Positions 13,341 to 47,266 of a stretch of DNA of 64,000 nt are shown here, in pieces. The notes beneath the pieces are model-generated. The model was not told where the DNA came from. It saw only the letters and a list, made by a program, of their open reading frames with translations, and ran no database searches. Source of the DNA: Mesostigma viride. Lineage: Eukaryota; Streptophyta; Mesostigmatophyceae; Mesostigmatales; Mesostigmataceae. The stretch is from positions 3,964,430 through 4,028,429 of the forward strand of contig RPFO01000175.1 of assembly GCA_009746045.1 (NCBI GenBank), in the 5' to 3' direction. The position numbers were made by a program, and so were the translations under genes. The first letter of the stretch is position 1, and each line of letters begins with the position of its first letter.

Positions 13341-13349
13341 CTGGGACTC

Positions 13350-18840: not shown

Positions 18841-18841
18841 A

Positions 18842-19965: not shown

Positions 19966-20154
19966 TAAGAAAGAAGAAGAGAAAACGTAAATGGTAATAA
20001 TACGAACAATAATAAATAAAGACAAAGTAAAGAGTGATAATAATAACAAAAACAAAAATGGAATAAAGGGAAGGTCATTGCTGGGATGTGGTGAGGCACA
20101 GGCGATGTTGGAGTATGGGTCAGGAGTTCGATTTTTTAGCGCCCATGAACAGAC

Positions 20155-20470: not shown

Positions 20471-20528
20471 TGGTAATGTTATGAACAAATTCCTATCAAG
20501 TTACGTCAATAACATGAGTACAAGTTAT

Positions 20529-21391
20529 CAAAGAGACAACCAGCGCAGGCCAGAAATCGGGAGAATCCGGACCATGGTAGCTCGAGCCTGCCGTTATCTT
20601 TTCCGCGTTTTCGAGTCGTTCAGGATGATGAAGATGAATGGTGATGGAAATGTGTATCCTTGTGCATTGAAATTGTGGCTGGCTTACGTGTGGAGCGACT
20701 AGATGACCTAGACGGTGGGGCCGGAAACAGCATGCTTGATCAGGGCGTGTGTTTCTAGCCTAGCTGGCCGGGAGTGTCTAGTGGTGAGCACCAGTTGCTG
20801 CGATCGCTCTCCCACCATTTACGAGGAAATACCCGCAAATGGAAAACCACTGAAAAGGTCTAGCTAGTCAGTCATCACGTTAGCCATGCCATGATTCCAA
20901 ACGTCCAAGAACTGCACACGGTGCAAAGGCAAAAAGCCGGAGGACAGCACTTTCAAATGTGCGGCGGGAACCAAAAGCCCGCGGATGCCAGAAAACATCG
21001 TGTTGCGGCAGCGACGCGACGATGTGGACAACGAATCCAGTGCCAAGCTTGGAACGGCCGCAAAGGAGATCTGGCATCACAGGGTTCAGATGTGCGGAGA
21101 TACTATGCGATCCAGCCGGTCCACGACCTGTTTGTAGAGCTTGTGCCAAGGGGCAGCACCGAACAGATGTGGGTGACGTTGCAAAAAACATCGGACTTGA
21201 CGGAGCATAATGGCTCGGTCATAGTCTTTGACCAATAAACGCTGCAAGAGTTCAACAAGAGTCGTGATGAAATCAACACGATAAGAACAAAGACGGGAAA
21301 AACGATGTAACTGAGAAAGAACAACACCATATTTTGCTGTGTGGGAAAGGAGACTGTGAATATCGGGGTAACGAATAAAAGGAATTTGCTG
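20529..21391 (-). mobile_element. Short retroposon, longest copy (863 bp), with 15-bp target duplication
   Basis: Flanked by ATGAGTACAAGTTAT at 20514-20528 and 21392-21406. Its low-coordinate end (CAAAGAGACAACCAGCGCAGG) is shared by all other copies, so it is the 3' end and the element lies on the minus strand. About 525 bp are nearly identical to 47581-48105. No intact protein frame is recognised. 21407-21934 holds nothing that I can identify. Confidence 0.85.
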
Positions 21392-21934
21392 ATGAGTACA
21401 AGTTATGTCAAAAGATGCAAGATGATATTGAAAAATACATAAATACGCATGAACCCTTATTCAAAATCAACCCTTATTAGTAAACAATCTATATGCCACG
21501 AGGCGATAGTGCTCATTTGGCACCCGTGTTTATTGGACACCGCCCTAACATATCCAATATCACACAGGAGATACAGCGTTCAGCTGAATTGTCCATACAA
21601 GTACCTCCACCTCCACCTTAACACCCTTGTGAAAGGTGGAAATAGACACCATGGTAAGCTGCTGCCATGATGGCAAGAATAATAAAAACAAGCCCCTTTA
21701 CCGACAGCTTTTTTGGTAGACCACCCAAACGCACGCAACACTATTTTCAACCATGCCAAACGAATAGAACAGGCAACCTGCCAGCGGTTCTCAGAGCGGG
21801 AGAAGGGCCTTGCGATTTGCCCAGAGATCGAACGGCACGACCTTTACCCAGCTCCTCCACAACAAACCCCATGGAAAACCACTTTGGCGGCCTGCAACCG
21901 ACTTGGATGACCGGATGTAGGCCCATCCCTTAAT

Positions 21935-22103
21935 CTATTCTTTGTACACCGATGCATGCACGGCCACCAGCGCCTTGGTCGCGTCCTTGCTGGCAATCAC
22001 AGCGGAGATGTTGCGCTCGGACGACCCCTGCGCGATGGCGATGACGTTCACCTTGGCGGCGCCCAGCGCGCTGAAGAACATGGCGGCCACGCCCGTGGCT
22101 TCC
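21935..22103 (-). CDS. ASADH/AK gene, exon 8 (ACT 2, stop)
   Basis: EATGVAAMFFSALG, VNVIAIAQGSSERNIS, KDATKALVAVHASVYKE, then TAG. In kinase-homoserine dehydrogenases the dehydrogenase would begin right here. Confidence 0.93.
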
Positions 22104-24581
22104 CTGGAGGGCAGAAGTACGTAGATGTGGCAAGGGACCGTGGTGGGGAAGTAGCGGGCGATATGATGCGGAGTCAAGGGGAATAAATACCTTCTGTCAA
22201 GGGGGGCACAAGGTTGAGCAGAATCGAGAGTGGGGGCTGGGTGCCTTTGAGACGCAGAGGGCGGCACACACAAGCCAAGTAGAGCAAGTGGCAGGGCCAT
22301 GGCCATGGCGATTGCAAGCCATGGTAAGGCGGGCGGCAGGGGGAACGGTATGGGCACAGACAGGGGAAGGCCACCTGCACATTTGGGAGCATGGTGAAGC
22401 AAGTACCACGGACACGAGCAGTGGGGGAGAAGGCCACAACCACATTTGGGAATGGACAGAAGCTGGCCTCATGTCACGTCAGCATACAAGCACAAGGTCT
22501 TCTCTTAATCATTTTCTCGAAACAGTTTCTCCTGAACTATATTTAAAAGCTGTGCCATCTCAGAGCCGCTACCCTCTCTCCCATCCCCCCCCCCCAACCC
22601 TTATCTATCTCCCCCACGCTTATTTTTGCTGCCTCCCCAACCAAACCTTTGACTATCGCCTACGCCACGAGGAGTGACGGCAGCACAGCTGCCCACCTGT
22701 CAAATAGTTTGAAACTTCCCTTTCTCAACTACAGGATGCCACGATGGCGGCGCCCCGCACAAGAAACCAGCTCCGTTCAAACCGGCCCCATCACACGACC
22801 TTGGACCTGAACCCGGCAATGCTAACTAGCACCGGCTTCTAAACGACGTCCTGGAACCCCTGCCAACCCGTCCCCGTGCCGGCCCACTCACCTGACAAGG
22901 GTCTGCAAGCACCAGAATGCCGCACACCTCCATTCCCTCACGCTCGGATTGCACATAGCAAAGCACACTGTAATCCCACTGTGCCCACTTCAGGCCGAGA
23001 GCTCGCAGCATAGGCAGCATTTTCGGCGTCAAGTGGGACAAGTATAGCACACTGTAGCGGTGGGACAAGTACACCATAGTGCAGCGGCGCGCTCACCTCA
23101 TGCCGTCGCCGACGACGCCCAGGATGGCGCACTGGGGCATGATGAGCACGGGGTTGACCATCCCCTTGTGCATCTCGAGCGCAAACGCGTCCTCCACCGC
23201 CGCCTTGGAGCGCGCCGCCTGGTCCTCGGGCACGGCGAAGCAGATCGAGTGCTCGGACGAGGCCTGCGAGATGAGCACGACTGAGACCGCCGCCTGGCGC
23301 AGCGCGCCAAAGCACCTGAGAGGAGGGGGGGGGGGGCAGGAGAAGGCCAGCAAAAGGGGGGGGGAGCAAGGGAGAAGCAGCAGCAGAAGAAAGTAGCAGA
23401 GCGGGGACAAGTTGGCAGGGAGAAGTGGTGCGGGCCATTAGGGGGGGGAAGCATGGTACTCCGTGACATGCCTCTGCGCATGGCACGCAAGCACTTACTT
23501 AGTTATCATGGGGGAAGACTGTTTGCGGGAGTTAAATGTGAAAAAGCTGCCGAGCCGTGTGGCCCTATGCACTTCCCCTCTATTAAGATCATACATCTCC
23601 GCGATAGGCCCCTACACTCCGACCACCTGCGACTGTCACCTGTGCGATGCCCCTCTCACCATCTTACATCACAAACGACCGTCTCATATCACAAACGACC
23701 GTCTAATATCACAAAAAACGTCTTATACCAAAAACAAACGTCTTATATCACAAACAAACGTCTTATATCACAAACCACTGTCTTATATCACAAACCACTG
23801 TCTTATATCACAAATATCTCAGCAGCCCCTGGTCTCACAATGCTGATGACAACCCTTTTCCTCGTGACGCAGTCTACGTGCTTTGAAAATTAATCCTACC
23901 TGTCCGCGATACACGCCCATCATGGCGTTGCGGACCCCATCCCTCCCACCCCATCCCTCCTACCTCTCCGCGATGCCCGGCACGCCCATCATGGCGTTGC
24001 GGACCCCATCCCTCCCACCCCATCCCTCCTACCTCTCCGCGATGCCCGGCACGCCCATCATGGCGTTGCCCGAGAGGTCCAGCAGCGCGAGCCCCTTCAT
24101 GAAGCTGATGCCCTTGACCACCAGCTTGGCCGAGGCCGCGGTGGGCGCCACGTTCGCGCAGATCTTGGTGCCGGGCGCGGACGCGTCGAACGTGCAGCGG
24201 ATGCGGATGGGGATGTTGTGCTGCACGGCGGGCAGCATGGTGAGCGGGTGCAGGATGGATGCGCCGAAGAAGGACATCTCCATCGCCTCGTCGTACGAGA
24301 CCTCGTCCAGGACAAAAGCGTTGGGGACCTGAAGGGGTGGTGGTGATGTGGGGGGGGGTGGGGGAAGGGTGGCAAAAGGAAAGAAAGAATATGCCATGGA
24401 GGATTGTTGGCGCTAGCAGACATGCACTAGGGACAATCGCGGGGGCCACGGGGAAGACAGGAAAGACAGGAAGACATAGGGAAAAGAAGGAACGTGCGAT
24501 GCGCGGAGGTTCGTTGAACGTTGGGATGTGATCAAGAAATGCAATAATGCCAGAGAGCGTTGGGGCCTGTGTGTGGTAGCC

Positions 24582-24627
<46 letters not shown>

Positions 24628-27600
24628 GGTGTGTGTCGGTGTGTGGGCGTGGGCGTGTGTGGGAGAGGGGGCATAGGGTGGTTTGCAACGGGAACACAAA
24701 GGGCTGGAATTAATTAATTAATTAATTAGGAACATAGCTCCGTTGGGAGTATATGTAGCACATAGCCCAGAGAAGGGGCATATGGCCTATCATACATTCT
24801 AAGCTACTTCCTGCAAGGGTGGGAATGTAAACGACCCTTGCTCTAGGTGCACCAGGGCACTTGCAGCCCCATGATCTTCAAGCTATGCCCAGCAAAGGGC
24901 TGGAATCACAATGTGAAATATATTACTACTATAGTATCCCCTTATCAGAGAGAAGGGGGCATTAAGTTTGACAAATACATAACCAATTGAATAACACGTT
25001 ACACGTAGATGAAGTACGGCACAAAGGGGATACATGGGAGGGGAAACGAGCAGGGGGGACCGAAATAATCGACAAACTTGCATGAGTGCGCGCATGCACG
25101 CGCTCACAGAGACACACACCGGGCAAAGACGGAGATTAGGTGCTAGCAGGCAATCGATGGAGTCATTTGATAAGAGCAGTACAGGCCAGCCACAAAGGAG
25201 GGGCACTGGCTTAATTGTACTGTACTGACGAACAGTACAATTTACTAGCCACAAAGGAGAGGCACAGGCTTGAAACGTACAGTACCATAAGTTATAAGGG
25301 ACACACATTAGTTGTACTGACTGTGTGTCCAGCGTATCATTAATCGACTGTGTGTCCGGCGTATCATTAATCGACTGTGTGTCCGGCGTATCATTAATCG
25401 ACTGTGTGTCCGGCGCATCATTAATCGACTGTGTATCCAGCGCCCACCTTGGTCGGGTCAGCCGACATGACGCCCTTGACCTCCTTCCAGATCTGCATGC
25501 TGTTGGCGTTGAGCAGCGCCGCGAATATGGACGCCGAGTAGTCGCTCCCGTTGCGGCCCAGTGTGGTGGAGTTGCCTTCCAGGTCCTTGGCCACAAAGCC
25601 CGTCACCACCATCGCGTCCGCGCTACGTGCGGAGGCCGCCAGCCAGGAGGAGAGCCGGGAGCGCGACACCTGGCGGCAGCAGAGGGGGGAAGGTTTGAAG
25701 GGAACGGCATCGCAGGCGCACGAGCACGTGTTCCAGTCAACGAGGAAGGGGTGTTAACACGCTGCCAGCCGGGAGGAGAGCTGGGAATGCGACACCTGGC
25801 TTCGCAGGAGCGCGGTCCTAAAAATAGCACGTCACAGCCTTGAGGGAAGGGGCAGGTGAGCAAGGTTCAAAGTGGATGGTGTTACAGGGGCACGTGTCCC
25901 AATCAACAAGGAAGGAATCTTGACCCAGCACGGCAGGTCTGTAAAGCCTGTTGTCCTAGGGGCCAGAAGTCCCAACGTTCATCAACCGGCGGAGGTGATT
26001 GCCTGCCACTGCCCAGGGGAGGGTCGCCCCGCCTCGTCCACTCCTTCACTCCTGCACTCTGTATTGGGAGAGTCACCGTGGAAATAAGAATCACCCGGTA
26101 TACTATCTTGGTCTCCTGGCCAGTAGCTGCTAGCCACACTCACAAGCCAGACGGGAACCCGCCATAGGTGAGAGCAAACGCACCCAACCCTGCCCCATGC
26201 CGCCAATCGCCAACCCTGCTAACAAGGCCCCCTCGAGGTCTGCAAATGCGGCCGCCCCGTTCTATCGCACGACCCCCTCGACGTCTGCACGCGCTGCCGC
26301 CCCGCGGTATCGCCGGATACATTCATCATTCTGGCCTTCTCTGGTTGTCTCCTTGACATATCATGTGCGTTTGTATCATGCTATCCCCCTACCATCACGT
26401 GCGCTTGTATCATGCTATCCCCCTACTATCATGTGCGCTTGTATCATGCTATCCCCCTAATGTCATGTGCGCTTGTATCATGCTATCCCCCTACTATCAT
26501 GTGCGCTTGTATCATGTGCGCTTGTATCAAGCTATCCCCCTAATATCATGTGCGCTTGTATCATGCTATCCCCCTACTATCATGTGCGCTTGTATCATGC
26601 TATCCCCCTAGTATCATGTGCGCTTGTATCATGCTATCCCCCTACTGTCATGTGCGCTTGTATCATGCTATCCCCCTACTATCAAGTGCGCTTGTATCAT
26701 GCTATCCCCCTACTGTCATGTGCGCTTGTATCATGCTATCCCCTACTGTCATGTGCGCTTGTATCATGCTATCCCCCTAATATCATGTGCGCTTGTATCA
26801 TGCTATCCCCCTACTGTCATGTGCGCTTGTATCATGCTATCCCCTACTATCAAGTGCGCTTGTATCATGCTATCCCCCTACTGTCATGTGCGCTTGTATC
26901 ATGCTATCCCCCTACTGTCATGTGCGCTTGTATCATGCTATCCCCCTAATATCATGTGCGCTTGTGTCATGCTATCCCCTACTGTCATGTGCGCTTGTAT
27001 CATGCTATCCCCCTACTGTCATGTGCGCTTGTATCATGCTATCCCCCTACTATCAAGTGCGCTTGTATCATGCTATCCCCCTACTGTCATGTGCGCTTGT
27101 ATCATGCTATCCCCCTACTGTCATGTGCGCTTGTATCATGCTATCCCCCTACTATCATGTGCGCTTGTATCATGCTATCCCCCTACTGTCATGTGCGCTT
27201 GTATCATGCTATCCCCTACTATCATGTGCGCTTGTATCATGCTATCCCCCTACTGTCATGTGCGCTTGTATCATGCTATCCCCCTACTGTCATGTGCGCT
27301 TGTATCATGCTATCCCCCTACTGTCATGTGCGCTTGTATCATGCTATCCCCCTACTGTCATGTGCGCTTGTATCATGCTATCCCCCTACTGTCATGTGCG
27401 CTTGTATCATGCTATCCCCCTACTGTCATGTGCGCTTGTATCATGCTATCCCCCTACTGTCATGTGCGCTTGTATCATGCTATCCCCCTACTATCATGTG
27501 CGCTTGTATCATGCTATCCCCTACTGTCATGTGCGCTTGTATCATGCTATCCCCCTACTATCATGTGCGCTTGTATCATGCTATCCCCCTACTGTCATGT

Positions 27601-30600
27601 GCGCTTGTATCATGCTATCCCCTACTGTCATGTGCGCTTGTATCATGCTATCCCCCTACTGTCATGTGCGCTTGTATCATGCTATCCCCCTACTGTCATG
27701 TGCGCTTGTATCATGCTATCCCCCTACTGTCATGTGCGCTTGTATCATGCTATCCCCCTACTGTCATGTGCGCTTGTATCATGCTATCCCCCTACTGTCA
27801 TGTGCGCTTGTATCATGCTATCCCCCTACTGTCATGTGCGCTTGTATCATGCTATCCCCCTACTGTCATGTGCGCTTGTATCATGCTATCCCCCTACTGT
27901 CATGTGCGCTGGTATCATGCTATCCCCCTAATGTCATGTGCGCTTGTATCATGCTATCCCCCTACTATCATGTGCGCTTGTATCAAGTGCGCTTGTATCA
28001 TGTGCGCTTGTATCATGCTATCCCCCTAATATCATGTGCGCTTGTATCATGCTATCCCCCTACTGTCATGTGCGCTTGTATCATGCTATCCCCCTACTGT
28101 CATGTGCGCTTGTATCATGCTATCCCCCTACTGTCATGTGCGCTTGTATCATGCTATCCCCCTAATGTCATGTGCGCTTGTATCATGCTATCCCCCTACT
28201 ATCATGTGCGCTTGTATGAAGTGCGCTTGTATCATGTGCGCTTGTATCATGTGCGCTTGTATCATGCTATCCCCCTACTGTCATGTGCGCTTGTATCATG
28301 CTATCCCCCTACTGTCATGTGCGCTTGTATCATGCTATCCCCCTACTGTCATGTGCGCTTGTATCATGCTATCCCCCTACTGTCATGTGCGCTTGTATCA
28401 TGCTATCCCCCTACTGTCATGTGCGCTGGTATCATGCTATCCCCCTAATGTCATGTGCGCTTGTATCATGCTATCCCCCTACTATCATGTGCGCTTGTAT
28501 CATGTGCGCTTGTATCATGTGCGCTTGTATCATGCTATCCCCCTACTATCATGTGCGCTTGTATCATGCTATCCCCCTACTGTCATGTGCGCTTGTATCA
28601 TGCTATCCCCCTACTGTCATGTGCGCTTGTATCATGCCATCCCCCTACTATCATGTGCGCTTGTATCATGCTATCCCCCTAATGTCATGTGCGCTTGTAT
28701 CATGCTATCCCCCTAATGTCATGTGCGCTTGTATCATGCTATCCCCCTACTATCATGTGCGCTTGTATCAAGTGCGCTTGTATCATGTGCGCTTGTATCA
28801 TGTGCGCTTGTATCAAGTGCGCTTGTATCATGCTATCCCCCTACTGTCATGTGCGCTTGTATCATGTGCGCTTGTATCATGCTATCCCCCTACTGTCATG
28901 TGCGCTTGTATCATGCTATCCCCCTACTGTCATGTGCGCTTGTATCATGCTATCCCCCTACTATCATGTGCGCTTGTATCATGCTATCCCCCTACTATCA
29001 TGTGCGCTTGTATCATGCTATCCCCCTAATATCATGTGCGCTTGTATCAAGTGCGCTTGTATCATGTGCGCTTGTATCATGTGCGCTTGTATCATGCTAT
29101 CCCCCTACTGTCATGTGCGCTTGTATCATGCTATCCCCCTACTGTCATGTGCGCTTGTATCATGCTATCCCCCTACTATCATGTGCGCTTGTATCATGCT
29201 ATCCCCTACTATCATGTGCGCTTGTATCATGTGCGCTTGTATCATGCTATCCCCCTACTATCATGTGCGCTTGTATCATGCTATCCCCCTACTGTCATGT
29301 GCGCTTGTATCATGCTATCCCCCTACTATCATGTGCGCTTGTATCATGTGCGCTTGTATCATGCTATCCCCCTAATATCATGTGCGCTTGTATCATGCTA
29401 TCCCCCTACTGTCATGTGCGCTTGTATCATGCTATCCCCCTAATGTCATGTGCGCTTGTATCAAGCTATCCCCTACTATCATGTGCGCTTGTATCATGCT
29501 ATCCCCCTAATGTCATGTGCGCTTGTATCATGCTATCCCCTACTATCATGTGCGCTTGTATCATGTGCGCTTGTATCATGCTATCCCCCTACTATCATGT
29601 GCGCTTGTATCATGCTATCCCCCTACTGTCATGTGCGCTTGTATCATGCTATCCCCCTAATATCATGTGCGCTTGTATCATGCTATCCCCCTACTATCAT
29701 GTGCGCTTGTATCATGCTATCCCCCTAGTATCATGTGCGCTTGTATCATGCTATCCCCCTAGTATCATGTGCGCTTGTATCAAGCTATCCCCCTACTATC
29801 ATGTGCGCTTGTATCATGCTATCCCCCTAATGTCATGTGCGCTTGTATCATGCTATCCCCCTACTATCATGTGCGCTTGTATCATGCTATCCCCCTACTG
29901 TCATGTGCGCTTGTATCATGCTATCCCCTACTATCATGTGCGCTTGTATCATGTGCGCTTGTATCATGCTATCCCCCTACTATCATGTGCGCTTGTATCA
30001 TGCTATCCCCCTAATGTCATGTGCGCTTGTATCAAGCTATCCCCTACTATCATGTGCGCTTGTATCATGCCATCCCCTACTATCATGTGCGCTTGTATCA
30101 TGCTATCCCCTAATGTCATGTGCGCTTGTATCATGCTATCCCCCTACTGTCATGTGCGCTTGTATCATGCTATCCCCCTACTATCATGTGCGCTTGTATC
30201 ATGCTATCCCCCTACTATCATGTGCGCTTGTATCATGCTATCCCCCTACTATCATGTGCGCTTGTATCATGCTATCCCCCTACTGTCATGTGCGCTTGTA
30301 TCATGCCATCCCCCTACTATCATGTGCGCTTGTATCATGCTATCCCCCTACTATCATGTGCGCTTGTATCATGCTATCCCCCTACTATCATGTGCGCTTG
30401 TATCATGCTATCCCCCTACTGTCATGTGCGCTTGTATCATGCTATCCCCCTAATGTCATGTGCGCTTGTATCATGCTATCCCCCTAATGTCATGTGCGCT
30501 TGTATCATGCTATCCCCCTACTATCATGTGCGCTTGTATCATGCTATCCCCTACTATCATGTGCGCTTGTATCATGCTATCCCCCTACTATCATGTGCGC

Positions 30601-33600
30601 TTGTATCATGCTATCCCCCTAATATCATGTGCGCTTGTATCATGCTATCCCCCTAATGTCATGTGCGCTTGTATCATGTGCGCTTGTATCATGCTATCCC
30701 CCTACTATCATGTGCGCTTGTATCATGCTATCCCCCTACTGTCATGTGCGCTTGTATCATGCTATCCCCCTACTGTCATGTGCGCTTGTATCATGCTATC
30801 CCCCTACTATCATGTGCGCTTGTATCATGTGCGCTTGTATCATGCTATCCCCCTACTATCATGTGCGCTTGTATCATGCTATCCCCCTAATGTCATGTGC
30901 GCTTGTATCAAGCTATCCCCCTACTATCATGTGCGCTTGTATCATGCCATCCCCCTACTATCATGTGCGCTTGTATCATGCTATCCCCCTAATGTCATGT
31001 GCGCTTGTATCATGCTATCCCCCTACTGTCATGTGCGCTTGTATCATGCTATCCCCTACTATCATGTGCGCTTGTATCATGCTATCCCCCTACTATCATG
31101 TGCGCTTGTATCATGCTATCCCCCTACTATCATGTGCGCTTGTATCATGCTATCCCCTACTGTCATGTGCGCTTGTATCATGCCATCCCCCTACTATCAT
31201 GTGCGCTTGTATCATGCTATCCCCCTACTGTCATGTGCGCTTGTATCATGCTATCCCCCTACTGTCATGTGCGCTTGTATCATGCTATCCCCCTACTGTC
31301 ATGTGCGCTTGTATCATGTGCGCTTGTATCATGCTATCCCCCTACTGTCATGTGCGCTTGTATCATGCTATCCCCCTAATGTCATGTGCGCTTGTATCAT
31401 GCTATCCCCCTAATGTCATGTGCGCTTGTATCATGCTATCCCCCTACTATCATGTGCGCTTGTATCATGCTATCCCCCTACTATCATGTGCGCTTGTATC
31501 ATGCTATCCCCCTACTATCATGTGCGCTTGTATCATGCTATCCCCCTAATATCATGTGCGCTTGTATCATGCTATCCCCCTAATGTCATGTGCGCTTGTA
31601 TCATGTGCGCTTGTATCATGCTATCCCCCTACTATCATGTGCGCTTGTATCATGCTATCCCCCTACTGTCATGTGCGCTTGTATCATGCTATCCCCCTAA
31701 TGTCATGTGCGCTTGTATCATGCTATCCCCTACTGTCATGTGCGCTTGTATCATGCTATCCCCCTACTGTCATGTGCGCTTGTATCATGCTATCCCCCTA
31801 CTATCATGTGCGCTTGTATCATGTGCGCTTGTATCATGCTATCCCCCTAGTGTCATGTGCGCTTGTATCATGCTATCCCCCTACTGTCATGTGCGCTTGT
31901 ATCATGCTATCCCCCTACTAACATGTGCGCTTGTATCATGCTATCCCCTAATGTCATGTGCGCTTGTATCATGCTATCCCCCTACTATCATGTGCGCTTG
32001 TATCATGCTATCCCCCTACTATCATGTGCGCTTGTATCATGCCATCCCCCTACTGTCATGTGCGCTTGTATCATGCTATCCCCCTACTATCATGTGCGCT
32101 TGTATCATGCTATCCCCCTACTATCATGTGCGCTTGTATCATGCTATCCCCCTACTATCATGTGCGCTTGTATCATGTGCGCTTGTATCATGCTATCCCC
32201 CTACTATCATGTGCGCTTGTATCATGTGCGCTTGTATCATGCTATCCCCCTACTATCATGTGCGCTTGTATCATGCTATCCCCCTACTATCATGTGCGCT
32301 TGTATCATGCTATCCCCCTAATATCATGTGCGCTTGTATCATGTGCGCTTGTATCAAGCTATCCCCCTACTATCATGTGCGCTTGTATCATGCTATCCCC
32401 CTACTATCATGTGCGCTTGTATCATGCTATCCCCCTACTGTCATGTGCGCTTGTATCATGCTATCCCCCTACTATCATGTGCGCTTGTATCATGTGCGCT
32501 TGTATCATGCTATCCCCCTACTGTCATGTGCGCTTGTATCATGTGCGCTTGTATCATGCTATCCCCCTACTATCATGTGCGCTTGTATCATGTGCGCTTG
32601 TATCATGCTATCCCCCTACTATCATGTGCGCTTGTATCATGCTATCCCCCTACTATCATGTGCGCTTGTATCATGCTATCCCCCTACTATCATGTGCGCT
32701 TGTATCATGCTATCCCCCTACTATCATGTGCGCTTGTATCATGCTATCCCCCTACTATCATGTGCGCTTGTATCATGCTATCCCCCTACTGTCATGTGCG
32801 CTTGTATCATGCTATCCCCTACTATCATGTGCGCTTGTATCATGCTATCCCCCTACTGTCATGTGCGCTTGTATCATGCTATCCCCCTACTATCATGTGC
32901 GCTTGTATCATGCTATCCCCCTAGTGTCATGTGCGCTTGTATCATGCTATCCCCCTACTATCATGTGCGCTTGTATCATGCTATCCCCCTACTGTCATGT
33001 GCGCTTGTATCATGCTATCCCCCTACTGTCATGTGCGCTTGTATCATGCTATCCCCCTACTATCATGTGCGCTTGTATCATGCTATCCCCCTAGTATCAT
33101 GTGCGCTTGTATCATGTGCGCTTGTATCATGCTATCCCCCTACTATCATGTGCGCTTGTGTCATGCTATCCCCCTACTGTCATGTGCGCTTGTATCATGC
33201 TATCCCCCTACTATCATGTGCGCTTGTATCATGCTATCCCCTAATATCAAGTGCGCTTGTATCATGCTATCCCCCTACTATCATGTGCGCTTGTATCATG
33301 CTATCCCCCTACTGTCATGTGCGCTTGTATCATGCTATCCCCCTACTATCATGTGCGCTTGTATCATGCTATCCCCCTAATGTCATGTGCGCTTGTATCA
33401 TGCTATCCCCTACTATCATGTGCGCTTGTATCATGCTATCCCCCTACTATCATGTGCGCTTGTATCATGCTATCCCCTAATGTCATGTGCGCTTGTATCA
33501 TGCTATCCCCCTAATATCATGTGCGCTTGTATCATGCTATCCCCCTACTATCATGTGCGCTTGTATCATGCTATCCCCCTACTATCATGTGCGCTTGTAT

Positions 33601-36600: not shown

Positions 36601-39600
36601 TATGGGCGCCATCAACGGTGACGGGCCGATGCCATGCCCTTTACTGCTGACACGACCACCTGCGAGGGGGTGCGAGTGTCGGAAAATGGTAAGAGGAAAT
36701 GCCTCCGTGACCAAGCTGTGACAACATGTTCCTAATCCAACCCATCCTATGACGAGATGATAATGATAGATAGAGTAATTCTGCACGATTATTAAAAATT
36801 GGTCCTACATAGGGACGACGATACATAGGGAGGGGGATGGTTTTACATTTCAAGGAATACAACATTTGCATGCCCACCCTCAACCCTGTGTGCCTATCCG
36901 TGCCACCCTTCTACCGTGACATGACCCGCCCACCCCTGCGTGCGTATGCATGCCCCCACTCTATCGTGACATCACCATGGGCACAAAGGAGTGCACCGTG
37001 GCATCACCATGGGCACAAAGGAGTGCACCGTGGCATCACCATGGGCACAAAGGAACAGAGGAGTGCACCGTGGCATCACCATGGGCACAAAGGAACAGAG
37101 GAGTGCACCGTGGCATCACCATGGGTACAAAGGAACAGAGGAGTGCACCGTGGCATCACCATGGGCACAAAGGAGTGCACCGTGGCATCACCATGGGCAC
37201 AAAGGAACAGAGGAGTGCACCGTGGCATCACCATGGGCACAAAGGAACAGAGGAGGAGTGCACCGTGGCATCACCATGGGCACAAAGGAACAGAGGAGTG
37301 CACCGTGGCATCACCATGGGCACAAAGGAACAGAGGAGGAGTGCACCGTGGCATCACCATGGGCACAAAGGAACAGAGGAGGAGTGCACCGTGGCATCAC
37401 CATGGGCACAAAGGAACAGAGGAGTGCACCGTGGCATCACCATGGGCACAAAGGAGTGCACCGTGGCATCACCATGGGCACAAAGGAACAGAGGAGTGCA
37501 CCGTGGCATCACCATGGGCACAAAGGAACAGAGGAGTGCACCGTGGCATCACCATGGGCACAAAGGAACAGAGGAGTGCACCGTGGCATCACCATGGGCA
37601 CAAAGGAACAGAGGAGTGCACCGTGGCATCACCATGGGCACAAAGGAACAGAGGAGTGCACCGTGGCATCACCATGGGCACAAAGGAACAGAGGAGTGCA
37701 CCGTGGCATCACCATGGGTACAAAGGAGCAGAGGAGTGCACCGTGGCATCACCATGGGCACAAAGGAACAGAGGAGTGCACCGTGGCATCACCATGGGCA
37801 CAAAGGAACAGAGGAGGAGTGCACCGTGGCATCACCATGGGCACAAAGGAACAGAGGAGTGCACCGTGGCATCACCATGGGTACAAAGGAGCAGAGGAGT
37901 GCACCGTGGCATCACCATGGGCACAAAGGAACAGAGGAGTGCACCGTGGCATCACCATGGGCACAAAGGAACAGAGGAGGAGTGCACCGTGGCATCACCA
38001 TGGGCACAAAGGAACAGAGGAGTGCACCGTGGCATCACCATGGGCACAAAGGAACAGAGGAGTGCACCGTGGCATCACCATGGGCACAAAGGAACAGAGG
38101 AGTGCACCGTGGCATCACCATGGGCACAAAGGAACAGAGGAGTGCACCGTGGCATCACCATGGGCACAAAGGAACAGAGGAGTGCACCGTGGCATCACCA
38201 TGGGCACAAAGGAACAGAGGAGTGCACCGTGGCATCACCATGGGTACAAAGGAACAGAGGAGTGCACCGTGGCATCACCATGGGCACAAAGGAACAGAGG
38301 AGTGCACCGTGGCATCACCATGGGCACAAAGGAGTGCACCGTGGCATCACCATGGGCACAAAGGAACAGAGGAGTGCACCGTGGCATCACCATGGGCACA
38401 AAGGAACAGAGGAGTGCACCGTGGCATCACCATGGGCACAAAGGAACAGAGGAGTGCACCGTGGCATCACCATGGGCACAAAGGAACAGAGGAGTGCACC
38501 GTGGCATCACCATGGGCACAAAGGAGTGCACCGTGGCATCACCATGGGCACAAAGGAACAGAGGAGTGCACCGTGGCATCACCATGGGCACAAAGGAACA
38601 GAGGAGTGCACCGTGGCATCACCATGGGCACAAAGGAACAGAGGAGTGCACCGTGGCATCACCATGGGCACAAAGGAACAGAGGAGTGCACCGTGGCATC
38701 ACCATGGGCACAAAGGAACAGAGGAGTGCACCGTGGCATCACCATGGGCACAAAGGAACAGAGGAGTGCACCGTGGCATCACCATGGGTACAAAGGAGCA
38801 GAGGAGTGCACCGTGGCATCACCATGGGCACAAAGGAACAGAGGAGTGCACCGTGGCATCACCATGGGCACAAAGGAACAGAGGAGTGCACCGTGGCATC
38901 ACCATGGGCACAAAGGAACAGAGGAGTGCACCGTGGCATCACCATGGGTACAAAGGAGCAGAGGAGTGCACCGTGGCATCACCATGGGCACAAAGGAACA
39001 GAGGAGTGCACCGTGGCATCACCATGGGCACAAAGGAACAGAGGAGGAGTGCACCGTGGCATCACCATGGGCACAAAGGAACAGAGGAGTGCACCGTGGC
39101 ATCACCATGGGTACAAAGGAGCAGAGGAGTGCACCGTGGCATCACCATGGGCACAAAGGAACAGAGGAGTGCACCGTGGCATCACCATGGGCACAAAGGA
39201 ACAGAGGAGGAGTGCACCGTGGCATCACCATGGGCACAAAGGAACAGAGGAGTGCACCGTGGCATCACCATGGGCACAAAGGAACAGAGGAGTGCACCGT
39301 GGCATCACCATGGGCACAAAGGAACAGAGGAGTGCACCGTGGCATCACCATGGGCACAAAGGAACAGAGGAGTGCACCGTGGCATCACCATGGGCACAAA
39401 GGAACAGAGGAGGAGTGCACCGTGGCATCACCATGGGCACAAAGGAACAGAGGAGTGCACCGTGGCATCACCATGGGCACAAAGGAACAGAGGAGTGCAC
39501 CGTGGCATCACCATGGGTACAAAGGAACAGAGGAGTGCACCGTGGCATCACCATGGGCACAAAGGAACAGAGGAGTGCACCGTGGCATCACCATGGGCAC

Positions 39601-42600
39601 AAAGGAGTGCACCGTGGCATCACCATGGGCACAAAGGAACAGAGGAGTGCACCGTGGCATCACCATGGGCACAAAGGAACAGAGGAGTGCACCGTGGCAT
39701 CACCATGGGCACAAAGGAACAGAGGAGTGCACCGTGGCATCACCATGGGCACAAAGGAACAGAGGAGTGCACCGTGGCATCACCATGGGTACAAAGGAGC
39801 AGAGGAGTGCACCGTGGCATCACCATGGGCACAAAGGAACAGAGGAGGAGTGCACCGTGGCATCACCATGGGCACAAAGGAACAGAGGAGTGCACCGTGG
39901 CATCACCATGGGCACAAAGGAACAGAGGAGTGCACCGTGGCATCACCATGGGCACAAAGGAACAGAGGAGTGCACCGTGGCATCACCATGGGCACAAAGG
40001 AACAGAGGAGTGCACCGTGGCATCACCATGGGCACAAAGGAACAGAGGAGTGCACCGTGGCATCACCATGGGCACAAAGGAACAGAGGAGTGCACCGTGG
40101 CATCACCATGGGCACAAAGGAACAGAGGAGTGCACCGTGGCATCACCATGGGCACAAAGGAACAGAGGAGTGCACCGTGGCATCACCATGGGCACAAAGG
40201 AACAGAGGAGTGCACCGTGGCATCACCATGGGCACAAAGGAACAGAGGAGTGCACCGTGGCATCACCATGGGCACAAAGGAACAGAGGAGTGCACCGTGG
40301 CATCACCATGGGTACAAAGGAACAGAGGAGGAGTGCACCGTGGCATCACCATGGGCACAAAGGAACAGAGGAGGAGTGCACCGTGGCATCACCATGGGCA
40401 CAAAGGAACAGAGGAGTGCACCGTGGCATCACCATGGGCACAAAGGAACAGAGGAGTGCACCGTGGCATCACCATGGGCACAAAGGAACAGAGGAGTGCA
40501 CCGTGGCATCACCATGGGTACAAAGGAACAGAGGAGTGCACCGTGGCATCACCATGGGCACAAAGGAACAGAGGAGTGCACCGTGGCATCACCATGGGCA
40601 CAAAGGAACAGAGGAGGAGTGCACCGTGGCATCACCATGGGTACAAAGGAACAGAGGAGTGCACCGTGGCATCACCATGGGCACAAAGGAACAGAGGAGT
40701 GCACCGTGGCATCACCATGGGCACAAAGGAACAGAGGAGTGCACCGTGGCATCACCATGGGCACAAAGGAACAGAGGAGTGCACCGTGGCATCACCATGG
40801 GCACAAAGGAACAGAGGAGTGCACCGTGGCATCACCATGGGCACAAAGGAACAGAGGAGTGCACCGTGGCATCACCATGGGCACAAAGGAGCAGAGGAGT
40901 GCACCGTGGCATCACCATGGGCACAAAGGAGCAGAGGAGTGCACCGTGGCATCACCATGGGCACAAAGGAACAGAGGAGTGCACCGTGGCATCACCATGG
41001 GCACAAAGGAACAGAGGAGTGCACCGTGGCATCACCATGGGCACAAAGGAACAGAGGAGTGCACCGTGGCATCACCATGGGCACAAAGGAACAGAGGAGT
41101 GCACCGTGGCATCACCATGGGCACAAAGGAACAGAGGAGTGCACCGTGGCATCACCATGGGCACAAAGGAACAGAGGAGTGCACCGTGGCATCACCATGG
41201 GCACAAAGGAACAGAGGAGGAGTGCACCGTGGCATCACCATGGGCACAAAGGAACAGAGGAGTGCACCGTGGCATCACCATGGGTACAAAGGAACAGAGG
41301 AGTGCACCGTGGCATCACCATGGGCACAAAGGAACAGAGGAGTGCACCGTGGCATCACCATGGGCACAAAGGAACAGAGGAGTGCACCGTGGCATCACCA
41401 TGGGTACAAAGGAACAGAGGAGTGCACCGTGGCATCACCATGGGCACAAAGGAACAGAGGAGTGCACCGTGGCATCACCATGGGCACAAAGGAACAGAGG
41501 AGTGCACCGTGGCATCACCATGGGCACAAAGGAACAGAGGAGTGCACCGTGGCATCACCATGGGCACAAAGGAACAGAGGAGTGCACCGTGGCATCACCA
41601 TGGGCACAAAGGAACAGAGGAGTGCACCGTGGCATCACCATGGGCACAAAGGAACAGAGGAGTGCACCGTGGCATCACCATGGGCACAAAGGAGTGCACC
41701 GTGGCATCACCATGGGCACAAAGGAACAGAGGAGTGCACCGTGGCATCACCATGGGCACAAAGGAACAGAGGAGTGCACCGTGGCATCACCATGGGCACA
41801 AAGGAACAGAGGAGTGCACCGTGGCATCACCATGGGCACAAAGGAACAGAGGAGTGCACCGTGGCATCACCATGGGCACAAAGGAACAGAGGAGTGCACC
41901 GTGGCATCACCATGGGCACAAAGGAACAGAGGAGTGCACCGTGGCATCACCATGGGCACAAAGGAACAGAGGAGTGCACCGTGGCATCACCATGGGCACA
42001 AAGGAACAGAGGAGTGCACCGTGGCATCACCATGGGCACAAAGGAACAGAGGAGTGCACCGTGGCATCACCATGGGCACAAAGGAACAGAGGAGTGCACC
42101 GTGGCATCACCATGGGCACAAAGGAACAGAGGAGTGCACCGTGGCATCACCATGGGCACAAAGGAACAGAGGAGTGCACCGTGGCATCACCATGGGCACA
42201 AAGGAGCAGAGGAGTGCACCGTGGCATCACCATGGGCACAAAGGAACAGAGGAGTGCACCGTGGCATCACCATGGGCACAAAGGAACAGAGGAGTGCACC
42301 GTGGCATCACCATGGGCACAAAGGAACAGAGGAGTGCACCGTGGCATCACCATGGGCACAAAGGAACAGAGGAGTGCACCGTGGCATCACCATGGGCACA
42401 AAGGAACAGAGGAGTGCACCGTGGCATCACCATGGGCACAAAGGAACAGAGGAGTGCACCGTGGCATCACCATGGGCACAAAGGAACAGAGGAGTGCACC
42501 GTGGCATCACCATGGGCACAAAGGAACAGAGGAGTGCACCGTGGCATCACCATGGGCACAAAGGAACAGAGGAGGAGTGCACCGTGGCATCACCATGGGC

Positions 42601-45600
42601 ACAAAGGAACAGAGGAGTGCACCGTGGCATCACCATGGGCACAAAGGAACAGAGGAGTGCACCGTGGCATCACCATGGGCACAAAGGAACAGAGGAGTGC
42701 ACCGTGGCATCACCATGGGCACAAAGGAACAGAGGAGTGCACCGTGGCATCACCATGGGCACAAAGGAACAGAGGAGTGCACCGTGGCATCACCATGGGC
42801 ACAAAGGAACAGAGGAGGAGTGCACCGTGGCATCACCATGGGCACAAAGGAACAGAGGAGTGCACCGTGGCATCACCATGGGCACAAAGGAACAGAGGAG
42901 TGCACCGTGGCATCACCATGGGCACAAAGGAACAGAGGAGTGCACCGTGGCATCACCATGGGCACAAAGGAACAGAGGAGTGCACCGTGGCATCACCATG
43001 GGCACAAAGGAACAGAGGAGTGCACCGTGGCATCACCATGGGCACAAAGGAACAGAGGAGTGCACCGTGGCATCACCATGGGCACAAAGGAACAGAGGAG
43101 TGCACCGTGGCATCACCATGGGCACAAAGGAACAGAGGAGTGCACCGTGGCATCACCATGGGCACAAAGGAACAGAGGAGTGCACCGTGGCATCACCATG
43201 GGCACAAAGGAACAGAGGAGTGCACCGTGGCATCACCATGGGCACAAAGGAACAGAGGAGTGCACCGTGGCATCACCATGGGCACAAAGGAACAGAGGAG
43301 GAGTGCACCGTGGCATCACCATGGGCACAAAGGAACAGAGGAGTGCACCGTGGCATCACCATGGGCACAAAGGAACAGAGGAGTGCACCGTGGCATCACC
43401 ATGGGCACAAAGGAACAGAGGAGGAGTGCACCGTGGCATCACCATGGGCACAAAGGAACAGAGGAGTGCACCGTGGCATCACCATGGGCACAAAGGAACA
43501 GAGGAGTGCACCGTGGCATCACCATGGGCACAAAGGAACAGAGGAGGAGTGCACCGTGGCATCACCATGGGCACAAAGGAACAGAGGAGTGCACCGTGGC
43601 ATCACCATGGGCACAAAGGAACAGAGGAGTGCACCGTGGCATCACCATGGGCACAAAGGAACAGAGGAGTGCACCGTGGCATCACCATGGGCACAAAGGA
43701 ACAGAGGAGGAGTGCACCGTGGCATCACCATGGGCACAAAGGAACAGAGGAGTGCACCGTGGCATCACCATGGGCACAAAGGAACAGAGGAGTGCACCGT
43801 GGCATCACCATGGGCACAAAGGAACAGAGGAGTGCACCGTGGCATCACCATGGGCACAAAGGAACAGAGGAGTGCACCGTGGCATCACCATGGGCACAAA
43901 GGAACAGAGGAGTGCACCGTGGCATCACCATGGGCACAAAGGAACAGAGGAGTGCACCGTGGCATCACCATGGGCACAAAGGAACAGAGGAGGAGTGCAC
44001 CGTGGCATCACCATGGGCACAAAGGAACAGAGGAGTGCACCGTGGCATCACCATGGGCACAAAGGAACAGAGGAGTGCACCGTGGCATCACCATGGGTAC
44101 AAAGGAACAGAGGAGTGCACCGTGGCATCACCATGGGCACAAAGGAACAGAGGAGTGCACCGTGGCATCACCATGGGCACAAAGGAACAGAGGAGGAGTG
44201 CACCGTGGCATCACCATGGGCACAAAGGAACAGAGGAGTGCACCGTGGCATCACCATGGGCACAAAGGAACAGAGGAGTGCACCGTGGCATCACCATGGG
44301 CACAAAGGAACAGAGGAGTGCACCGTGGCATCACCATGGGCACAAAGGAACAGAGGAGTGCACCGTGGCATCACCATGGGCACAAAGGAACAGAGGAGTG
44401 CACCGTGGCATCACCATGGGTACAAAGGAACAGAGGAGTGCACCGTGGCATCACCATGGGCACAAAGGAACAGAGGAGTGCACCGTGGCATCACCATGGG
44501 CACAAAGGAACAGAGGAGTGCACCGTGGCATCACCATGGGCACAAAGGAACAGAGGAGTGCACCGTGGCATCACCATGGGTACAAAGGAGCAGAGGAGTG
44601 CACCGTGGCATCACCATGGGCACAAAGGAACAGAGGAGTGCACCGTGGCATCACCATGGGTACAAAGGAGCAGAGGAGTGCACCGTGGCATCACCATGGG
44701 CACAAAGGAACAGAGGAGGAGTGCACCGTGGCATCACCATGGGCACAAAGGAACAGAGGAGTGCACCGTGGCATCACCATGGGCACAAAGGAACAGAGGA
44801 GTGCACCGTGGCATCACCATGGGCACAAAGGAACAGAGGAGTGCACCGTGGCATCACCATGGGTACCAAGGAACAGAGGAGTGCACCGTGGCATCACCAT
44901 GGGCACAAAGGAACAGAGGAGGAGTGCACCGTGGCATCACCATGGGCACAAAGGAACAGAGGAGTGCACCGTGGCATCACCATGGGCACAAAGGAACAGA
45001 GGAGTGCACCGTGGCATCACCATGGGCACAAAGGAACAGAGGAGGAGTGCACCGTGGCATCACCATGGGCACAAAGGAGCAGAGGAGGAGTGCACCGTGG
45101 CATCACCATGGGCACAAAGGAGCAGAGGAGGAGTGCACCGTGGCATCACCATGGGCACAAAGGAGCAGAGGAGGAGTGCACCGTGGCATCACCATGGGCA
45201 CAAAGGAACAGAGGAGGAGTGCACCGTGGCATCACCATGGGCACAAAGGAGCAGAGGAGGAGTGCACCGTGGTATGGCCTATAGGGGGTGTATGCCGCGA
45301 GCGGCCACCCTGTGTGCCCTGTGTGCCTTCTATCCATGCCAACACGCAGTAGGGATAGTACGATCGCATCGTCCTTGCTACCATCCTATGGCATGGGGGC
45401 TGGTGCTATGACAGGTACAAGGAGGGAGACGAGCGCGCTGTCCTAGAAGGCACCCACCGTGCGCGACCACCCCTGTGTGCCTATCCATGCCAACACGCAG
45501 TAGGGATAGTACGATCGCATCGTCCTAGCGACACCCACCGCGAGCGGGCGCCCCTGCGTGCGTGCCAGCTCGTGCTTGAGCAGCCCCGCCACGTTACGGA

Positions 45601-47266
45601 AACACTCGGCGTCCGCGAGGCTGCTGCCGCCAAACTTGTGCACGTTCGGGCGCACCATCGGCGTGGCCGCGCCCGACAACGCGGCAACAGCGTCGTCCAA
45701 CACGTCCCCCGTCGGTCCACCCTCGCCCTCCCGGACCCGATGCAGCGACCAGTCCCTTGGCCGGTCGCCCGGGTTGATGGTCACCCCGCCCCCGATCATT
45801 GCCGCCTTGGCCGGTCCCGCAGCGGCTAATGCTGGCACGCTGAGCAGGGTCACGTGGCCCGCGGCGACCGCCAGCTCAGCGATGTAGAGCGCTGAGCGGG
45901 CTGATGCGGCGCTCGTGTCGGCCCACGAGGCGGTGAACCCGAACCGGGTGGTCGGGGCGGTGGGCGTCGCGGGGGGCGCGCCAGCAGGCAAGGTCGATGA
46001 GTGGCCACGGGCCGATACGCGGGAGACGATGACGCTGGCGTCCGCCCCCGCGAGCAGTTGGCTGGAGGAGGAGGGACCCTGGACCAGGCGGATGTAGCGG
46101 CTGCTGCTGCTGTGGGTCTGCCACGTGGATGAGAGGTCGGCGGCGGTCGTGGCGCCGTGGATCGTGCCGGACACACTCAGGAGTGCCTGCGAGGAGGACA
46201 TGTCGTGGTAGCACTCGGAGGTGAGCTCCAAGGGGAGCGGCTGGTGGGGGCCGCCGGGGTTGGCGCTCACGCCCAGGAGGTTCCCGAGTAGGGCGTGGGA
46301 GGCGGAGACCTCGCACTCGCACGGCTTCTCCGGGTCGGCGTTCTTTTTCGACCCGTTGCGCATGCAGACGACGTGGACGTCACGTACGTCAAATCCGTCC
46401 ACGAGGGGCCGTAGGGCGATAGAGAGGGTGAGCGCGAAGCTCTCGCCGCCGCAGCCGACGACCGGGGATCGGCCCTTGGGGGGGCAAATGCACGCCGAGA
46501 GCGGGTCGGAGAGGGACGGGCGTGCGAGCGTGAAAACCGGGCGGCCGGACGCGGACAATGCGTCCTCGATCGGGCCAGCGACGCTAGCAGGGAGCGCGCT
46601 GAAGACAATGTCGCACGAGGTGAAATTCTCTGGCGAGCTGGATTGCAGCTTCATTTGCCATGCTGAAGTGTTTTCGGCAATTTTGTTGCCGTTAGCAGCG
46701 TCGCGCAGCGTCTTGCCGGTGGACGCGGGGGATGCAGCTATCGTGGCGATTTGGAACGAAGGATGAGAATCAAGGTAGTATATCAGCCATTGACCTACAC
46801 GGCCGGTGGCGCCCAGCACGCCGCATTTCAGTTGCCTGGTCTCCCCTGCCTGCGGCGACAATTGAAGGACAAAGTCGTGATACATCCGACGAACAGGAAA
46901 TGTGTGATTAATGGGGGAGGAATAATCATGTTTTAAAAAATGCTAGGACGCCGGAATGTGTATGTCATCTAGGTTAAATCTAGAACATAAGATGCATTGC
47001 AAGAAAAAGAAACTAACATCCATGGGGACGAAAGCTCCGCCGACTCGATTACGCTGTCGTTGCCCAGGCAGCCATTGAGGCAAAGGCTTTATTGTGCGAT
47101 TACAGCACATGTTCGCCAGAATAAGTTTAGAATCAGTATATTTGTACGATCTCGCAGGAACACCGTACGATTTCCTTGTGTTTCCTCCATTCATATGGTA
47201 AGAGACTGGGGAACTAGCCGCGACGTAACGTCCTAGTGACGTCCTTGCTGCGCCTAGCGACGTCAT
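21935..47266 (-). CDS. ASADH-like domain fused to aspartate kinase with two ACT domains, 983 aa
   Basis: Eight exons join in phase: 47266-47018, 46849-45539, 36228-35871, 35541-35414, 25669-25448, 24328-24033, 23315-23097, 22103-21935. Residues 1-~83 are Ser/Ala/Arg-rich, a likely plastid transit peptide. Residues ~90-400 resemble fungal/archaeal-type aspartate-semialdehyde dehydrogenase: GATGRVGQ 96-103, AASPASTGK, IVFSALPASVA, IALRPL, RVSARGHS 360-367. The catalytic NxCS box reads GGES, so Cys is probably replaced. Residues 486-~800 are aspartate kinase: KFGGSS 488-493, VVVSAMKGVTD 521-531, LGRNGSDYSAS 719-729, SYDEAMEMSFFGASILHP 767-784. Two ACT domains follow (VSVVLISQASSEHSIC; VNVIAIAQGSSERNIS), as in ThrA-type kinase-homoserine dehydrogenases, but a TAG ends the protein at HASVYKE with no dehydrogenase. 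Role: first step of Lys/Thr/Met synthesis, with feedback binding at ACT. Exon 1 is the least certain. Confidence 0.85.
22997..23096 (-). repeat. Donor-proximal ~30-bp tandem repeat, intron 7
   Basis: Starts about ten bases into the intron. Two clear units share GTACTTGTCCCACC / ATACTTGTCCCACTT and a weaker third follows. The rest of the intron (22104-22996) shows no gene. Confidence 0.6.
23097..23315 (-). CDS. ASADH/AK gene, exon 7 (ACT 1 end, ACT 2 start)
   Basis: CFGALRQAAVSVVLISQ, ASSEHSICFAVPE and CAILGVVGDGM. The acceptor follows a long pyrimidine tract (C/T-rich on the minus strand). Donor GTGAGC. Confidence 0.93.
23660..23816. repeat. ~22-bp tandem repeat, intron 6
   Basis: Seven units of the type CTTATATCACAAACCACTGT. 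Confidence 0.9.
23921..24060 (-). repeat. 78-bp tandem copy of exon 6 end plus donor
   Basis: The segment CCCATCATGGCGTTGC...CTACCTCTCCGCGATGCC occurs at the true exon end and again directly downstream in the intron, with a third truncated copy. The full intronic copy keeps the exon sequence and the GTAGGA donor. Confidence 0.9.
24033..24328 (-). CDS. ASADH/AK gene, exon 6 (kinase end, ACT 1)
   Basis: Starts VPNAFVLDEVSYDEAMEM, continues through HNIPIRIRCTF and APGTKI, and ends GVPGIAE plus two bases at donor GTAGGA. The last ~50 bases plus donor are repeated in tandem at 23921-24045. Confidence 0.93.
24580..24660. repeat. (GT)n microsatellite, intron 5
   Basis: About 25 GT units and imperfect continuations. 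Intron 5 (24329-25447) also holds AATT repeats at 24709-24728 and a ~70-bp two-copy repeat (AGCCACAAAGGAG, 25190-25290). Confidence 0.95.
25317..25445 (-). repeat. 27-bp tandem repeat touching the exon 5 donor
   Basis: Four to five units containing ACACAGTCGATTAATGAT. The first unit begins about 3-5 bases after the exon boundary. Confidence 0.9.
25448..25669 (-). CDS. ASADH/AK gene, exon 5 (nucleotide and aspartate binding)
   Basis: 74 codons with MVVTGFVAKD, TTLGRNGSDYSAS and KEVKGVMSADP, the most diagnostic aspartate kinase block. Donor AAG/GTGGGC. Confidence 0.93.
26350..35285. repeat. 34-bp minisatellite array, 8.9 kb, in intron 4
   Basis: About 260 units, each built of two TATCATG-headed halves: a 19-bp half with CTATCCCCCTAC and a 15-bp half with TGCGCTTG. 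Many places have extra 15-bp halves or one C fewer. Variants recur at 442 bp (13 units): GGCATG at 33901 and 34343, and AATATCAAG at 34036 and 34478. Frames up to 686 aa arise because 34 is not a multiple of three. They are not genes. Confidence 0.98.
35286..35413 (-). repeat. ~58-bp tandem copies of exon 4 end plus donor
   Basis: CCTCACCTCCCACTTGAC occurs at the true donor and twice more toward the satellite. The farthest copy keeps the GT, the middle one has GG. Between copies lies CCGGCTGAACCCCTGCCCC. Confidence 0.9.
35414..35541 (-). CDS. ASADH/AK gene, exon 4 (kinase)
   Basis: Reads GEVWSMQLLSAYLRSLG and LNAQDVLVVE, the helix and strand before the aspartate site. Ends KWE at donor GTGAGG. 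The exon end and donor are copied twice more in the next 125 bases of intron. Confidence 0.9.
35565..35660. repeat. 18-bp tandem repeat, intron 3
   Basis: Five units of GGACACGAGGACAAGCAT type within the 329-base intron between exons 3 and 4. Confidence 0.9.
35871..36228 (-). CDS. ASADH/AK gene, exon 3 (kinase)
   Basis: Opens VVVSAMKGVTDLLLDAV right after acceptor TCGCCAG and ends AGH plus one base at donor GTGAGC. It includes an Asp/Ser/Glu-rich insert (DDANASESDARDG) not typical of bacterial kinases. Confidence 0.9.
36241..36545. repeat. 59-bp tandem repeat beside the exon 3 acceptor
   Basis: Five copies at 36249, 36308, 36367, 36426 and 36485, containing GAAGCCATTATTATAAGAAT and GGGTGGCGAAGCCAAG, with GCGAAG/GCCAAG alternation between copies. 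Confidence 0.95.
36622..36676 (-). pseudogene. Ghost copy of the exon 3 start and acceptor
   Basis: On the minus strand CCCCCTCGCAG is followed by GTGGTCGTGTCAGCAGTAAA, reading VVVSAVKG against VVVSAMKG in the true exon 430 bases further on. The match then fades. It flanks the 59-bp array on the far side from the real exon. Confidence 0.7.
36962..45270. repeat. 40-bp minisatellite array, 8.3 kb, in intron 2
   Basis: About 205 units containing CATCACCATGGGCACAAAGG, with 43-bp (extra GAG) and 32-bp (8-base deletion) forms. Variants GTACAAAGGAGCAG at 37718/38948 and 37881/39111 are each 1230 bp apart, so blocks of ~30 units were duplicated. No stop occurs in the plus direction, leaving all three frames open for 8.4 kb (about 2800 codons each). 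The minus strand has one TGA per unit. Confidence 0.98.
45285..45538 (-). repeat. Tandem copies of exon 2 donor region
   Basis: TATCCATGCCAACACGCAG followed by TAGGGATAGTACGATCGCA occurs at 45331 and 45481. A donor-like CACCCACCG with CCCCTG(C/T)GTGC occurs at the true junction and again at 45450. A weaker third piece joins the 40-bp satellite. Confidence 0.75.
45539..46849 (-). CDS. ASADH/AK gene, exon 2 (ASADH-like domain, start of kinase)
   Basis: 437 codons. Residues 84-485 hold the dehydrogenase-like domain, then KFGGSSLADAECF opens the kinase. Donor GCG/GTGGGT. The middle part (330-460) is Ser/Ala/Pro-rich and poorly conserved-looking. Confidence 0.85.
47018..47266 (-). CDS. ASADH/AK gene, exon 1 (candidate transit peptide)
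   Basis: 83 codons from ATG at 47266 (an earlier in-frame ATG lies at 47329). It starts MTSLGAARTSLGRYVAASS, rich in Ser, Ala and Arg with no acidic residue early on. Donor GAT/GTTAGT and acceptor CCGCAG give a 168-base intron in phase 0. If it is wrong, translation could start at 46885 with MYHDFVLQLSPQ. Confidence 0.55.

Follow-up and report, generated by a model that had tools for sequence, protein, structure and literature searches.

Does the alga Mesostigma viride (Streptophyta) combine the first two steps of the aspartate pathway in one protein? The question is raised by a gene on the minus strand of contig RPFO01000175.1 (assembly GCA_009746045.1), within the stretch of 64,000 nucleotides analyzed here (positions 3,964,430 to 4,028,429; hereafter the window, within which all coordinates are given). 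A sequence-only reading of this stretch had placed an enzyme fold of aspartate-semialdehyde dehydrogenase (ASADH), the enzyme of step 2, in front of aspartate kinase (AK), the enzyme of step 1. A single gene with an ASADH-derived fold ahead of a full AK is indeed present, as shown by the exon that the two parts share and by their Pfam matches. As for the function, the residues kept and lost make it fairly probable, in our judgment, that the gene encodes a kinase of the lineage of ThrA, the bifunctional AK-homoserine dehydrogenase (HSDH), without the HSDH half and with an N-terminal ASADH-derived module that would be unable to carry out the ASADH reaction and would be kept for a noncatalytic role.

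The shared exon and the two parts of the protein

The joint between the two parts was claimed to be independent of splice prediction, and we can confirm this. The motifs GATGRVG and KFGGSS lie in one frame of a single minus-strand exon (exon 2, 46849-45539), which runs for 437 codons without a stop; none of 2000 base shuffles of this exon stayed open. The ASADH-like lobe KCGVLGATGRVGQW begins shortly after the 5' end of the exon, and the 3' end lies 35 residues into the AK (VHKFGGSS). When the exons are spliced, including the first exon proposed by the sequence-only reading, the model has 983 amino acids, seven GT-AG introns and a single, terminal stop; Pfam finds on it Semialdhyde_dh at residues 92-192 (E 2.9e-18), AA_kinase at 486-800 (9e-43) and ACT_9 in two stretches (6.5e-38).

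That the first lobe of ASADH is present, as the NAD(P)-binding lobe of the asd_EA family, is certain from its profile matches. Exon 2 matches the Pfam family PF01118 (Semialdhyde_dh) with E 2.8e-18 and 66.9 bits (cut-off 26). Among NCBIfam models, TIGR00978 (asd_EA) is the best match (5.4e-22 and 78.3 bits, where the equivalog cut-off is 301.2) and outranks argC (2.3e-9) and asd_B (0.013). Our own profile of 79 ASADH sequences matches the first lobe with 2.5e-27, and the top matches of a PDB sequence search are named aspartate-semialdehyde dehydrogenase, the best being 3hsk (8.1e-17). The significant profile matches end at model residue 191-192. The lobe (model residues 88-191, 46526..46837, minus strand) is of the archaeal/fungal class, unlike the genome's own intact ASADH, which is of the asd_B class. 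It shares with archaeal/fungal ASADHs the first lobe, the GATGxVGQ motif and 20 of 27 conserved columns, and differs from them in its score, far below the family cut-off, and in the replacement of the catalytic residues. The ASADH-like region had been drawn at residues 84-485; this stands for about 88-191 and is marginal for 192-428; residues 429-485 form a linker.

The kinase part is well conserved. Against Escherichia coli ThrA it shows 36% identity over 503 aligned columns, and the alignment stops at the end of ThrA's AK region. Its best NCBIfam match is PRK09436, bifunctional AK-HSDH I (3e-140, 468.8 bits; the whole-protein cut-off of 726 is not reached), and it passes TIGR00657, aspartate kinase, with 335.7 bits against a cut-off of 208.7. 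Both C-terminal ACT domains are present, the pair matching the solved ThrA fragment 6mx1 (1.7e-40), as are the AK catalytic residues KFGG, GE and GxGSD. In an alignment that took in 28 of 30 AK loci (two were not caught by the extraction pattern), 43 columns are conserved in 28 or more of the 32 other AKs, and the protein keeps 40 of these, including K488, GE 640-641 and GSD 723-725; it departs from the consensus with Lys for Thr at 744, Glu for Asp at 745 and Ile for Val at 781. A pseudokinase was considered on account of changes in the ATP loop; we rejected it as the principal interpretation, given this degree of conservation and the occurrence of several of the changes in the solved chain 2cdq (discussed below).

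A tree of 35 AK rows (LG+C20 PMSF) joins the kinase to the AK-HSDH of the same genome on contig C2133 (100/97) and next to ThrA (100/97). By this grouping, apart from the LysC-type AKs, and by its profile match, the kinase belongs to the AK-HSDH (ThrA) lineage. The intron at DPTK/VPNA falls at nearly the same codon in the C2133 gene, its phase one base apart, and the intron near VVVSAM lies a few bases from its counterpart there; the other introns compared differ, and we did not use shared introns as proof of kinship.

An HSDH half hidden downstream was considered and rejected, given the stop directly after the second ACT domain and the following searches. Using tblastn with the HSDH part of E. 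coli ThrA and with the joined HSDH pieces of C2133, nothing better than E 0.15 was found in positions 1-21936 of the window. A Pfam scan that covered 9501-21935 in its three minus-strand frames gave no match up to E 0.1. ThrA also aligns to a stretch past the stop, with a score that 20 of 500 shuffles equal or exceed. The protein is like ThrA and plant AK-HSDH in its AK catalytic domain and ACT pair, its best profile match and its place in the tree, and unlike them in that no HSDH half was found past the ACT pair and that an ASADH-derived module lies in front.

Catalytic residues of the ASADH-like module

The sequence-only reading implied that the gene joins the enzymes of both steps, and here it is not borne out. 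We aligned exon 2 with 40 prokaryotic asd_EA proteins, taken from the 80 best loci listed for a genome-contig collection. The alignment has 87 columns in which 36 or more of these proteins are conserved, and exon 2 keeps 35 of them, distributed as 20 of 27 within exon residues 1-108 and 15 of 60 beyond. At positions that are invariant in all 40 ASADHs, the nucleophilic Cys is replaced by Ser220 (model numbering; codon at 46439..46441, minus strand), the Gln by Arg247, the substrate-binding Arg by His298 and the acid-base His by Ala305. An Arg and a Lys, likewise present in all 40 and matched by us through motif position to the phosphate site, are replaced by Leu196 and Val264. The SGAG motif is lost, its place reading S-K-K-gap, and in the EE pair Glu261 is retained and the following Glu is replaced by Cys.

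Counting motifs without any alignment gave the same picture. In the 79 of the 80 listed loci that were used for this count and for our profile, NC[STCA] occurs in 79, Q[ASM].SGAG in 77, [CA].R[VI]...GH in 75 and HN[TA].RGAA in 73, and none of the four occurs in exon 2; G[AG]TG occurs in 76 of the 79 ASADHs and in exon 2.

The effects of several of these losses are known from ASADH mutants. Table 1 of PMC3276109 gives less than 0.01% activity for Cys to Ser, 1.0% for His to Asn, 0.1% and 9.5% for the substrate Arg to Lys and to Leu, 1.2% for Glu to Asp and 0.07% for the phosphate Arg to Leu; a passage of PMC8648042 calls the Gln and the His essential. Because several losses known to cripple ASADH are combined in the module, it should be inactive for step 2. 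According to a passage of PMC3276109, the SGxG consensus contacts the nicotinamide of the coenzyme.

Gene model, neighborhood and genome

Exon 2 (45539..46849) holds the ASADH-like module, the linker and the first 35 AK residues. Behind the NAD(P)-binding lobe lies a degenerate region where the catalytic and dimerization lobe of an ASADH would be expected (model residues 192-428, 45815..46525), with the catalytic residues replaced and ASADH ancestry marginal; the linker to the AK (429-485, 45644..45814) has no Pfam match. GC content at third codon positions (GC3) is of the coding type: it is 0.70 for exon residues 1-124, 0.87 for 125-345, 0.87 for 346-398 (the linker) and 0.90 for 399-437; in sliding segments of 60 codons, it ranges from 0.63 at the 5' end of the exon to 0.93. 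The AK continues, always on the minus strand, in exon 3 (35871..36228), exon 4 with the GHGE motif (35414..35541), exon 5 with LGRNGSD (25448..25669) and exon 6 (24033..24328), which also begins the first ACT domain. Exon 7 (23097..23315) completes this domain and begins the second, and exon 8 (21935..22103) carries the second with the stop.

Long tandem arrays make up most of two introns. In intron 2 (36229..45538) the unit has 40 bp and is repeated about 205 times (37015-45259); in intron 4 (25670..35413) it has 34 bp and is repeated about 261 times (26510-35285). All three plus-strand frames of the 40-bp array are open over about 2,800 codons.

The 5' end of the gene is unproven. The putative exon 1 (47018..47266, minus strand; 83 amino acids), which is weakly supported, has an open frame, a start codon, a GT donor and possibly an organelle-targeting peptide. 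Its composition is flat (GC 0.50, GC3 0.46), a coding signature was not seen, and it has no Pfam match; we suggest treating it as a guess. An alternative start is the in-frame ATG at 46885, 12 codons upstream of exon 2.

Upstream of the fusion gene and on the same strand, a single stretch without stops (about 50035-51168) encodes a phosphoglycerate kinase domain (Pfam PGK, 8.2e-165). A mechanosensitive channel domain was matched weakly at about 57570-57752 on the minus strand (PF00924, 0.00054, barely above the cut-off). On the other side, an open frame of 398 codons (18942-20135, minus strand) resembles by eye the terminal part of a reverse transcriptase from a retrotransposon; this is unconfirmed, and Pfam gave nothing in that frame up to E 0.1.

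We searched the assembly of Mesostigma itself (439.9 Mb, 2243 contigs) for related genes. In addition to the AK-HSDH gene on C2133, it has two AKs closer to LysC than to ThrA, on C2022 and C1413. C2022 also encodes an intact ASADH, asd_B in class, in one open frame, with a leader resembling a transit peptide and with the motifs NCS and QAASGAG; it scores 399.4 bits against asd_B (cut-off 324.2). PF01118 is found at only three places in the genome: C2022, C2011 and the window. No second copy of the exon-2 protein was found at E 0.001 or below, the next best match being 0.27. Contig C2011, 1.49 Mb long, has a GC content of 0.32-0.36 in four stretches and carries bacterial-type genes in open frames; it is likely a bacterial symbiont of the Rickettsiales. 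HSDH exons were found on C1824 at about 22768-35312, a contig on which neither AK search gave a match; this HSDH and the HSDH-less AK of the window could be halves of a split AK-HSDH.

Beyond this genome, the only eukaryote genome searched, other algae may carry the same fusion. Viral contigs gave 14 matched stretches, none of them related by tblastn. Seven of 72,556 plasmid records matched, all annotated as asd; the five examined are separate genes, and two Leptospira plasmid matches lie outside these five. At the best 80 loci listed from the genome contigs, the open reading frame at the match is a single one of asd size: 79 are complete, at 338-380 amino acids from the chosen start, and one is cut by the end of the locus. 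At most about 185 further open codons lie upstream, too short for an AK. In the literature, we found no described fusion of AK and ASADH among open-license PMC papers, which is consistent, within that scope, with the statement of the sequence-only reading that it knew of none. It had also called fusions of AK to HSDH or to diaminopimelate decarboxylase established, and the names of NCBIfam models attest both; passages of PMC2705460 and PMC3901274 report AK-HSDH in oomycetes and a diatom. Compared with AK-diaminopimelate decarboxylase (PRK08961), the present gene is alike in having AK fused with a further enzyme of its pathway and different in partner and order, and its AK matches that model more weakly (8.1e-58 against 3e-140).

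Possible explanations and meaning

Kinase-reductase fusions are known in other pathways, as P5CS in proline and fungal ARG5,6 in arginine synthesis. They would be the parallel for a truly bifunctional AK-ASADH that passes unstable aspartyl phosphate to its own dehydrogenase, and the gene resembles them in that a single chain unites an amino-acid kinase and, for the step that follows, a domain of the semialdehyde dehydrogenase type. It has the reverse domain order, and its dehydrogenase part is without the catalytic residues. Two consecutive pathway steps in one chain, the retained GATGxVGQ nucleotide-binding motif and one conserved Glu of the active-site region speak for such an enzyme; with Cys, His, Arg, Gln and the putative phosphate-site Arg and Lys all replaced, and NC[STCA], Q[ASM].SGAG and [CA].R[VI]...GH absent from exon 2, we consider it highly improbable. 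Exon Cys133, four residues ahead of the nucleophile position, would still be without partners. An artifact of expression or assembly, in which the two parts come from separate transcripts or the gene is dying, also seems quite improbable to us: exon 1 has no coding signature and two introns contain tandem arrays longer than 8 kb, but the joint lies inside a single 1.3-kb exon free of tandem array, no internal stop appears when the eight exons are joined, GC3 is 0.83-0.98 in exons 2-8, and the AK core is conserved.

A further explanation, unlikely in our view, is that a lone NAD(P)-binding lobe was captured, followed by a spacer (residues 192-428) that is new or has no relation to ASADH. The end of the significant matches at residue 191-192 would fit this, and so would the scores of the middle region by itself: exon residues 125-345 reach 3.0 bits against the 79-sequence profile with HMMER, a score attained by 1 of 200 shuffles; their local hhalign score is attained by 2 of 200 shuffles; their global alignment fails, with 100 of 200 shuffles scoring as high; and exon residues 164-436 alone give E 0.27 with hhalign against a five-sequence ASADH profile. 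Against it, the weak local hhalign match is in order over 169 columns, up to profile position 235 of 237, the tail IAELAVAAGHV can be aligned to the C-terminus of ASADH, and the whole exon aligns with the five-sequence profile over 230 columns (E 2.5e-17), though most of this score may stem from the first lobe. We read residues 192-428 as probably a worn second lobe of ASADH, the support for this ancestry being marginal.

We return to the explanation that we favor, a ThrA-lineage kinase with a catalytically dead ASADH-derived module. Several observations count against it. Glu261, which we take from its spacing to the Lys to be the Glu that binds the substrate amino group, is conserved. Classical NADP use is unlikely because the SGxG motif is gone, and NADP binding by the module is likewise doubtful. 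In the kinase, Asp at 745 is invariant in the 32 AKs compared and is Glu here; Thr at 744, found in 29 of 32, is Lys, as in the other 3. As we take both positions to belong to the ATP loop, reduced kinase activity is possible from these changes. In addition, the tree program flags the composition of this AK as unusual, and the C2133 and C1413 rows of the tree are joined partial exons. The solved chain 2cdq (ASPARTOKINASE), which we take to be Arabidopsis AK1, has several of the same ATP-loop changes; Asp to Glu is without parallel among the 32.

For such a dead-module kinase, we propose the following scheme. The ThrA-type kinase would make aspartyl phosphate from aspartate, the ACT pair would give feedback control, and step 2 would be carried out by a separate ASADH. 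The module, if kept by selection, would be a pseudoenzyme serving the control or assembly of the kinase; as candidate roles, it could bind NADP(H) by the adenine end, associate with itself or dock the true ASADH. More tentatively, and with considerable doubt, the dead module might be a built-in sensor of NADP(H) or of the product of the ASADH step, or a docking arm that pairs with the plastid ASADH. If this is true, a docking complex would shield aspartyl phosphate, and entry into the aspartate pathway of this alga would be under a new control; we know of no described AK with such a control.

The expected third kinase-reductase fusion, that of the aspartate family, would thus be seen here in a form without reductase chemistry. 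The gene sets apart two reasons for such fusions: handing over the substrate, which would be impossible for this protein alone, and control or assembly, which would still be possible. It would also be an example, from close to the base of the land-plant line, of an AK-HSDH-lineage kinase that lacks the customary partner domain and has another.

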